Positions 33,740-36,460 of a stretch of 64,000 nucleotides of DNA are shown here, piece by piece (position 1 is the stretch's first letter; every line of letters starts with the position of its first letter). The position numbers and the translations under genes are program-made. The notes beneath the pieces were generated by a model, which was not told the origin of the DNA, made no database searches, and saw only the letters and a program-made list of their open reading frames with translations. Source of the DNA: Bacillota bacterium (GTDB lineage: Bacteria; Armatimonadota; HRBIN16); the NCBI GenBank assembly GCA_023511455.1, contig JAIMBJ010000005.1, forward strand, positions 1-64,000. Direction: 5' to 3'.

Positions 33740-36460
33740 ATGTCTGATTGGAAGCGAGAAGGTACCCTGGTGCTCATGGCAGGAACGGTTAACCTGCTGG
33801 CAGGACTATGTGCGTGGATGGGTATCCTGTCAACGCGAACCCTTTCGGGTAGCCAGCATCTGATAGTGCTTCTGGGCGTAGCCCTCGCAGCAGCGTTACC
33901 CCTGTTTGTGCACCGGCTCATGCGCCAGCGCACCTCGCCCGGAGACCCCGTTATCCTGCCCATCACGTTCCTGCTTGGCGGAGTTGGCCTGGCAAACCTG
34001 CTGGGCACTGTGGGCAGCGACGATATCGCCCTTGTCACGAAGCACTGTCTGGGGCTGTTCGCAGGTGGCGTGATCGTAGTGCTGCTCGCAGGCATGAATC
34101 ATACTCAGAGAAAGACCCTGCTGGAGTATCGCTACCTGTGGGCGTTGCTGGCGCTGTTGCTGGGGGTGCTTCTGCTGATTTTCGGCAGGGGTCCGGGAGG
34201 GGCGCGCCTGCAGCTGTTCGGTTTTTTGCCGGTGGAAGCCATGAAACTCTTGCTGGTGCTGTTTGCTGCAGGATACGCCGCACGACGTTTTGGCACGCTG
34301 TCGCCTCCGCGCACCGGTATCCACTGGTGGCAGTTGCGCTGGCAGGAGCTGCTCCCGTTGCTGGTGATGTTCGCCTTCATGCTGGGCATTTTTGTGCTGG
34401 CACGCGATTTCGGTCCTGCCCTGACGCTGTACCTGACCTTGCTGGTGATGCTCTATCTGGTCACGGGAAGGGCGGTGCTGCTGATACCGGCAGTCCTCCT
34501 GATGTTAACAGGCATCCTTCTGGTGGAGGCGCTGGGAATTGGTGTATTGCCTACTCGTGTAGCGATGTGGCTGTCACCCTGGCAGATTACCGAAGACCAT
34601 GCGCGCCATCTGGCGCACAGCCTGTGGGCGCTATCCACCGGAGGTCTGTTCGGCAGCGGTATCGGGCTGGGTAAGCCGCAGAGCGTGCCCTTCGCCCGAT
34701 CCGACTCGGTGTTCAGCATGTGGGGGGAACATCTGGGGTTGGTCGGAACCCTGTCTCTGCTTTGCCTGTACGCCCTGTGGCTCGGGCGATTCATACGCAT
34801 TGCGCAGCGTTCTGCTACCAGTGAAGACTGCCTGCTGGCGGCGGGCATTGCCGTGCTTCAGGGCACTCAGATAGTGCTAATCTGCGCAGGCATTACGGGT
34901 CTGTTGCCGATGACCGGCATGTCGCTTCCCTTCGTGGCTCAGGGCAACTCCGCTCTGCTGGCAAACAGCGCGATGGTGGGTTTGCTCTACAGCATCACCG
35001 CGCACCCATCGCCACAACCTGCTCCCTCCAGCACCGGAAGATATCGTTTCCGCCTGCGCGTGCTGGCATGGGCGTTCACGCTGATTATCCTAGGCCTGAT
35101 TGGCGCGCGCAGTTTCTGGATCCAGGGCATCCAGGCGGACGACATAGCGACACGTCCTCTGATGGTGCGACTGCCCAAAAGCGAACCTCACCGGGTGACC
35201 AACCCCCGACTGACCGCCATTGCCCAGCGCATCCCGAGAGGGCGGATTCTGGACTCCACCGGAGCGGTGCTGGCGGAAACACGGGATGGACGTCGGGTAT
35301 ACCCCTGCGGCGAAGCATGTGCGCAGCTGGTAGGCTGGCTGGATGCCCGCTTTGGAGGTCCATCGGGTGCTGAGGCGCGTTACAACCGACGCCTGCGGGG
35401 ATACGACAGCACGCGCGACCTGTTGCGCCTCTACCGAAGGAAAGACCTGCCCTTCTTCCGCCTGCCGGAGGGACAGGATGTGACTTTGACCATCTCGCGG
35501 GGGGCGCAACAGCGTGCCCTGCGCGCCATTCGGCAGGCTTACCCGAACGGCAATGCGACATTCGTGCTGATAGAGCCTGATTCGGGGCATGTGCTAGTAG
35601 CAGCGGGCACACCAACCTTTGACCCCAACCAGCTGAACCCCACTTTGTGGCAACAGCTGCGAACGCGCAAAGACGCCCCGCTGGTGTTCCGACCGGTGGA
35701 TGGTCTCTACCCACCCGGCTCGGTGTTCAAGGTAGTCACTGCGGCAGCTGCGCTGGAGAAGGGAGTGCCCCTGCGCCACCGATGTCGCCATATCGAGCGC
35801 AACGTGCGCTGGAAGGTGGGCGATAAGACCTTCGTGAAGTCTCGCCTGAGTGACCATCCAACGATGCGGGCGCACGGTACGCTGGGCTTAAGGGATGCCC
35901 TCCGGCTGTCCTGCAACCTCTACTTCGGGCACTTAGCCATCGCCCTGCAACCCGCAACGCTTTATGAGACCGCCACTGCGGTGGGCTTTCAACGTGTCCC
36001 CAAACCCGATGAAATGGCGGCGGAACTGCCCGATTGTGGCTTCGGACAGGGCAAGATACTGGCATCGCCTCTGGAGGTGGCGAACCTGATGGCGACTATA
36101 GCCCGAGACGGCACCTGGCGCAGGGCTGTTTTCGCCCCAGGAAACAACCCGTCCAGACCGGTTCTGAGTGATGCCACCGCCGAGGCTCTTCGGCAGATGC
36201 TGGGCGAGGTGGTGCAAACGGGTACGGCATACGGTATCTTCACCGGAACCGGCTGGGAAGTGTACGGCAAAACAGGCACTGCTGAAACCAGCGAGGGTAA
36301 ACGCAAACCGCACGGTTGGTTTGCCGGCGTGGTGCAAAACGACAACCTGCCCCCGCTGGCGTTTGCGCTCATATTGGAACACGGCGGTAGTGGGCGCGAA
36401 GCTGCCCGCGCCAGCCGAAAAATCCTGCAACAGGTGCTTCCCGTGCTACAGCAGCGATAA
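33740..36460 (+). CDS. SEDS glycosyltransferase fused to class B penicillin-binding protein
   Basis: 906 residues in one uninterrupted frame. Residues 1-430 form an FtsW/RodA/SpoVE-type SEDS membrane domain of about 10 helices. ARDFGPAL, LSTGGLFGSGIGLG and the conserved Asp of the external loop (D322, ARSDSVFSMWGEHLG) match the polymerase site. Residues 450-906 are a class B PBP transpeptidase: RGRILDSTGAVLAET, SxxK in PPGSVFK (S661, K664), SxN as SCN (724-726) and KTGT (from K844). SEDS proteins polymerise glycan strands and class B PBPs crosslink them; normally they are two interacting proteins. Here the peptidoglycan polymerase and crosslinker are covalently joined. The gene stands alone, with a weak ribosome binding site. 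Confidence 0.93.
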   Translation: MSDWKREGTLVLMAGTVNLLAGLCAWMGILSTRTLSGSQHLIVLLGVALAAALPLFVHRLMRQRTSPGDPVILPITFLLGGVGLANLLGTVGSDDIALVTKHCLGLFAGGVIVVLLAGMNHTQRKTLLEYRYLWALLALLLGVLLLIFGRGPGGARLQLFGFLPVEAMKLLLVLFAAGYAARRFGTLSPPRTGIHWWQLRWQELLPLLVMFAFMLGIFVLARDFGPALTLYLTLLVMLYLVTGRAVLLIPAVLLMLTGILLVEALGIGVLPTRVAMWLSPWQITEDHARHLAHSLWALSTGGLFGSGIGLGKPQSVPFARSDSVFSMWGEHLGLVGTLSLLCLYALWLGRFIRIAQRSATSEDCLLAAGIAVLQGTQIVLICAGITGLLPMTGMSLPFVAQGNSALLANSAMVGLLYSITAHPSPQPAPSSTGRYRFRLRVLAWAFTLIILGLIGARSFWIQGIQADDIATRPLMVRLPKSEPHRVTNPRLTAIAQRIPRGRILDSTGAVLAETRDGRRVYPCGEACAQLVGWLDARFGGPSGAEARYNRRLRGYDSTRDLLRLYRRKDLPFFRLPEGQDVTLTISRGAQQRALRAIRQAYPNGNATFVLIEPDSGHVLVAAGTPTFDPNQLNPTLWQQLRTRKDAPLVFRPVDGLYPPGSVFKVVTAAAALEKGVPLRHRCRHIERNVRWKVGDKTFVKSRLSDHPTMRAHGTLGLRDALRLSCNLYFGHLAIALQPATLYETATAVGFQRVPKPDEMAAELPDCGFGQGKILASPLEVANLMATIARDGTWRRAVFAPGNNPSRPVLSDATAEALRQMLGEVVQTGTAYGIFTGTGWEVYGKTGTAETSEGKRKPHGWFAGVVQNDNLPPLAFALILEHGGSGREAARASRKILQQVLPVLQQR

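Follow-up and report, generated by a model that had tools for sequence, protein, structure and literature searches.

Peptidoglycan polymerization and cross-linking by SEDS–PBP partners are normally studied in two-protein complexes or in engineered fusions, and the catalytic Asp of SEDS proteins sits in an outer loop between helices 7 and 8 (D262 in E. coli RodA). Synthetic single-chain versions, RodA–PBP2 and SpoVE–SpoVD, place the SEDS protein N-terminally and the PBP C-terminally across a short linker and are active (PMC6207328, PMC10449877), while the RodA–PBP2 fusion was reported to be partly cleaved in its linker (PMC6207328). Natural fusions of the two partners in a single open reading frame (ORF) have been mentioned in passing, with the Rhodococcus RHA1 genome cited (PMC10449877), and this was the only treatment of them found in our incomplete coverage of the literature. 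In actinobacteria, rodA and pbpA are adjacent in the locus layout fhaA–fhaB–pstP–rodA–pbpA–pknA–pknB (PMC6554272), and the reported roles of both genes are in forming the septum and setting cell length (PMC8093794; PMC6554272).

In this study, we analysed a 64,000-nucleotide stretch of an Armatimonadota genome (hereafter 'the window'; contig JAIMBJ010000005.1), which contains a gene of this already known, little-studied kind of fusion; the gene is real and well conserved. The natural fusions mentioned earlier (PMC10449877) likewise combine a SEDS polymerase and a PBP in one ORF, although they come from a different phylum and are known here by that mention, without a sequence to compare. The first-pass annotation of this locus had taken it as a rule that FtsW/RodA and class B PBPs are separate proteins, which the same mention of natural fusions contradicts. 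Its broader reading stood in part: the joining of the two enzymes, the intact active-site residues and a confident structural model were borne out, whereas the premise of invariably separate partners and a direct bearing on elongation or division were not.

A SEDS polymerase and a class B PBP in one reading frame

The fused gene is one ATG-start ORF of 906 codons without internal stop at 33740–36460 on the forward strand, the strand of all features given below, and its assignment draws on the ORF, Pfam, homologues and dN/dS. Pfam places FTSW_RODA_SPOVE at residues 96–422 (165.8 bits) and Transpeptidase at residues 607–896 (144.8 bits; 35558–36427), both far over their cut-offs; the short PBPA-type pedestal (residues 500–559; 35237–35416) is PBP_dimer_2-like, with a sub-threshold match of 20.4 bits against a cut-off of 27. 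The N-terminal half thus qualifies as a SEDS protein by its FTSW_RODA_SPOVE domain and ten membrane helices, and the C-terminal half as a class B PBP by its SxxK, SxN and KTG motifs, its anchor helix and its lack of a GT51 domain. These motifs, read from the ORF and the alignment, are S661-V-F-K664 (35720–35731), S724-C-N726 (35909–35917) and K844-T845-G846-T847 (KTG(T); 36269–36280). The ORF therefore joins a SEDS glycosyltransferase covalently to a class B PBP transpeptidase, and the unbroken frame with a complete SEDS domain followed by a complete transpeptidase is as first described, with D322, S661, K664, S724, N726 and K844 onwards all at the positions originally assigned to them. Promoter and terminator scans gave counts near chance.

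AlphaFold2, supplied with the window protein and homologues from genome contigs, yielded the structure prediction that the first-pass annotation had called for, a confident model of the 906-residue protein as a single chain (mean pLDDT 90.8, pTM 0.83). The model has 13 apparent membrane helices: two extra N-terminal helices (residues 2–32 and 37–64; 33743–33931), also seen in the alignment, ten in the SEDS core (residues 72–421; 33953–35002), which Pfam supports as well, and the PBP anchor helix as the thirteenth (residues 431–460; 35030–35119). The last of the SEDS helices is connected to the anchor helix by a nine-residue linker (residues 422–430, HPSPQPAPS; 35003–35029) without internal Met, and in the alignment this linker occupies the gene-junction position of split homologues. 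The predicted catalytic Asp322 (codon 34703–34705), identified from model and alignment, is placed between model helices 245–265 and 324–357, in the large outer loop that connects SEDS helices 7 and 8. Given an inside N-terminus, both D322 and the transpeptidase would lie outside, a reading made from the model and the sequence rather than with a topology program. Lipid II would then be polymerized by the SEDS half, with Asp322 facing outwards, and the new strand would be cross-linked by the C-terminal PBP half, which the thirteenth membrane helix holds in place.

This architecture resembles the RodA–PBP2 elongasome synthase (6pl5, 8tj3) in its SEDS family, its class B transpeptidase and its catalytic Asp in a large outer loop. 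However, RodA and PBP2 are separate proteins in that synthase, and the PBP2 pedestal is a large PBP_dimer whereas that of the window protein is of the short PBPA type. Unlike the engineered fusions, the window protein is natural, has a linker of nine residues by the model and carries the two extra N-terminal helices. Being natural and conserved, with a short linker between its halves, this single chain offers a ready-made model for the structure and kinetics of the coupled reaction.

Conservation of the fused frame

A search for the domain architecture across genomes, as had been suggested, recovered the fusion in the window's genus, in other Armatimonadota families and in other phyla. The fused ORF is present in every one of the ten genus members sampled, at 71–93% identity and with contig ends truncating two of the copies; in the other Armatimonadota families, fused homologues are 33–44% identical. 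Across 205 Armatimonadota genomes of at least 90% completeness, approximately 40, counted from the match table, show both halves within a single in-frame match, and 134 have no match at 1e-30. Three of the approximately 40 fused matches contain a stop codon inside the match region (G200, G029 and G216); in G029, the ORF read from the locus (L025) is intact despite this stop. An assembly or frameshift artefact that joined two genes is ruled out, its probability being negligible, by the identical fused frame in ten genus members, other families and other phyla; there is no stop or frameshift between the domains, either of which would have overturned the original reading, and independent genomes show the same fused frame. 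No place in plasmid records covers 80% of the fused protein, which gives no evidence of plasmid carriage.

Within the genus, dN/dS is 0.10–0.15 for the whole gene and similarly low in the SEDS, junction and transpeptidase regions, indicating purifying selection throughout. Among 34 aligned fused homologues, S724 is kept in all, D322, K664, N726 and K844 in 33 each (the K844 exception being a gap at a contig end) and S661 in 32; with T845 and G846 included, each of these eight residues is kept in 31–34 of the 34. Loss of catalytic residues in homologues, the other outcome that would have counted against the first reading, is therefore confined to exceptions, of which two fusions from family f24 stand out: L035:6912-10214 has S661, K664 and N726 changed, and L037:7011-10373 has D322, R273 and S661 changed. 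Both retain open frames and may be pseudoenzymes, and because they have lost catalytic residues, the fusions are not all active bifunctional enzymes.

Kinase-locus relatives and the place of the fusion in the cell

In both sequence and fold searches with the PBP half, M. tuberculosis PBPA and the PBPA-like proteins 4mnr and 4jbf rank first. This half is PbpA-like, with the PBP_dimer_2 pedestal itself below the cut-off, and the relevant parallel for the fusion is the RodA–PbpA pair of the FHA/PstP/PASTA-kinase locus. Actinobacterial split SEDS homologues (L067, L108) carry an N-terminal extension similar to that of the fusion, and the FHA, PP2C and kinase neighbours of the actinobacterial locus recur around split homologues and one fused gene. 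In Armatimonadota, the split homologues sit among FHA, PP2C and PASTA-kinase genes in neighbourhoods of the FHA/PP2C/rodA/pbpA/PASTA-kinase type, and several split SEDS/PBP gene pairs overlap by 4 bp. Downstream of the one fused gene (L020) come genes of the FhaA-like, PP2C and kinase types, the kinase having no PASTA match, and another fused gene (L021) is followed by an FhaA-like gene. In the window's genus, by contrast with the actinobacterial arrangement, the two genes are fused and are not linked to FHA, PP2C or PASTA-kinase genes: what is conserved beside the fusion is a URO-D-family gene in convergent orientation, and the window's genome has an FhaA-like gene beside a PP2C gene, plus a PASTA kinase, elsewhere and unlinked. 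Separately, the reverse order, with the PBP gene before the SEDS gene, was seen in six loci (L076, L084, L085, L089, L098 and L110) belonging to Chromatiaceae, Verrucomicrobia and one other PVC-group genome.

The fusion most likely arose from a rodA–pbpA pair of the FHA/PP2C/PASTA-kinase neighbourhood type, in which adjacent frames often overlap by 4 bp and a small deletion at the overlap could join them. A concatenated tree of 107 rows places the fusion, with good support, in a clade of 25 fused rows that come from Armatimonadota and Acidobacteriota (support of 100 in a thinned tree), and other fusions, from Coriobacteriia, Lachnospiraceae and another Armatimonadota family, fall among split pairs, so that at least six fused/split interchanges are required. 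The tree, which is unrooted and comes from a quick search, gives these changes without a direction. A single origin of all fusions is disfavoured, as the best tree needs eight changes, six of them forced by well-supported branches (seven and six in the thinned tree). Such repeated fusion of one gene pair suggests that the SEDS–PBP pair works as a stable unit.

If the protein were translated as one chain and then cut in the linker, the two halves would work as a normal two-protein complex present at equal levels. The short, Pro-rich linker and the partial cleavage of a synthetic RodA–PBP2 fusion in its linker (PMC6207328) speak for this. Against it, purifying selection acts on the junction as it does on the domains, and fusing the genes would be a curious way to reach equal levels that a 4-bp overlap already provides; we consider cleavage very improbable. 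We infer instead that the fusion remains uncleaved, and a SEDS:PBP stoichiometry locked at 1:1 would hold only in that case.

As to its place beside other synthases, the host genome has a dcw cluster in which FtsI and FtsW are encoded alongside mraZ, murG and a Mur ligase, and it also encodes a separate RodA, a PBP2 with a PBP_dimer domain, a class A PBP and MreB. Separate ftsW, rodA and PBP2/PBP3 genes, for which the first-pass annotation had recommended a check, are thus present, and the fused gene is the third SEDS gene and one of three class B PBP genes. It follows from the separate FtsW and FtsI, RodA, PBP2 and class A PBP that the fusion is an extra synthase, and a direct bearing on the control of elongation or division was an over-reading. 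That it serves as the main elongation or division synthase of the lineage, replacing a canonical pair, would fit its occurrence in every sampled genus member and its strong constraint; we consider this improbable, given that FtsW and FtsI, RodA, PBP2, MreB and class A PBP are all encoded and that most Armatimonadota genomes have no close homologue.

Taken as a whole, the fusion is likely a single-chain accessory peptidoglycan synthase derived from a kinase-locus rodA–pbpA pair, acting as a third synthase beside FtsW–FtsI and RodA–PBP2. By analogy with actinobacterial RodA–PbpA, it probably acts in division or envelope maintenance and does so under the control of a serine/threonine kinase; for the window's genus, the suggestion of kinase control is indirect because the gene lies outside the kinase neighbourhood there.

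The first outer loop of fused relatives

Of the 34 fused proteins, 14 have an HHH_3 helix-hairpin-helix match, which lies N-terminal to the SEDS domain where its position is known (L021 and L025) and, by alignment, in the loop between the two extra helices. In the window's genus no domain was found in this loop, and our incomplete coverage of the literature returned nothing on helix-hairpin-helix domains in SEDS proteins. We raise as a doubtful possibility that the fusions of Armatimonadota and Acidobacteriota form an old clade of 13-helix single-chain SEDS–PBP proteins whose first outer loop serves as a modular site, occupied by a helix-hairpin-helix or TonB_C domain or left empty, that might sense or tether envelope material and so tune a third, kinase-controlled peptidoglycan synthase.

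The HHH_3 matches are of the ComEA type and apparently outside the membrane, in L021:5805-9017, L025:7313-10567 and 12 further fused homologues. In one other fused homologue, L038:6020-9286, the region ahead of the SEDS domain that holds HHH_3 in others carries a TonB_C match.
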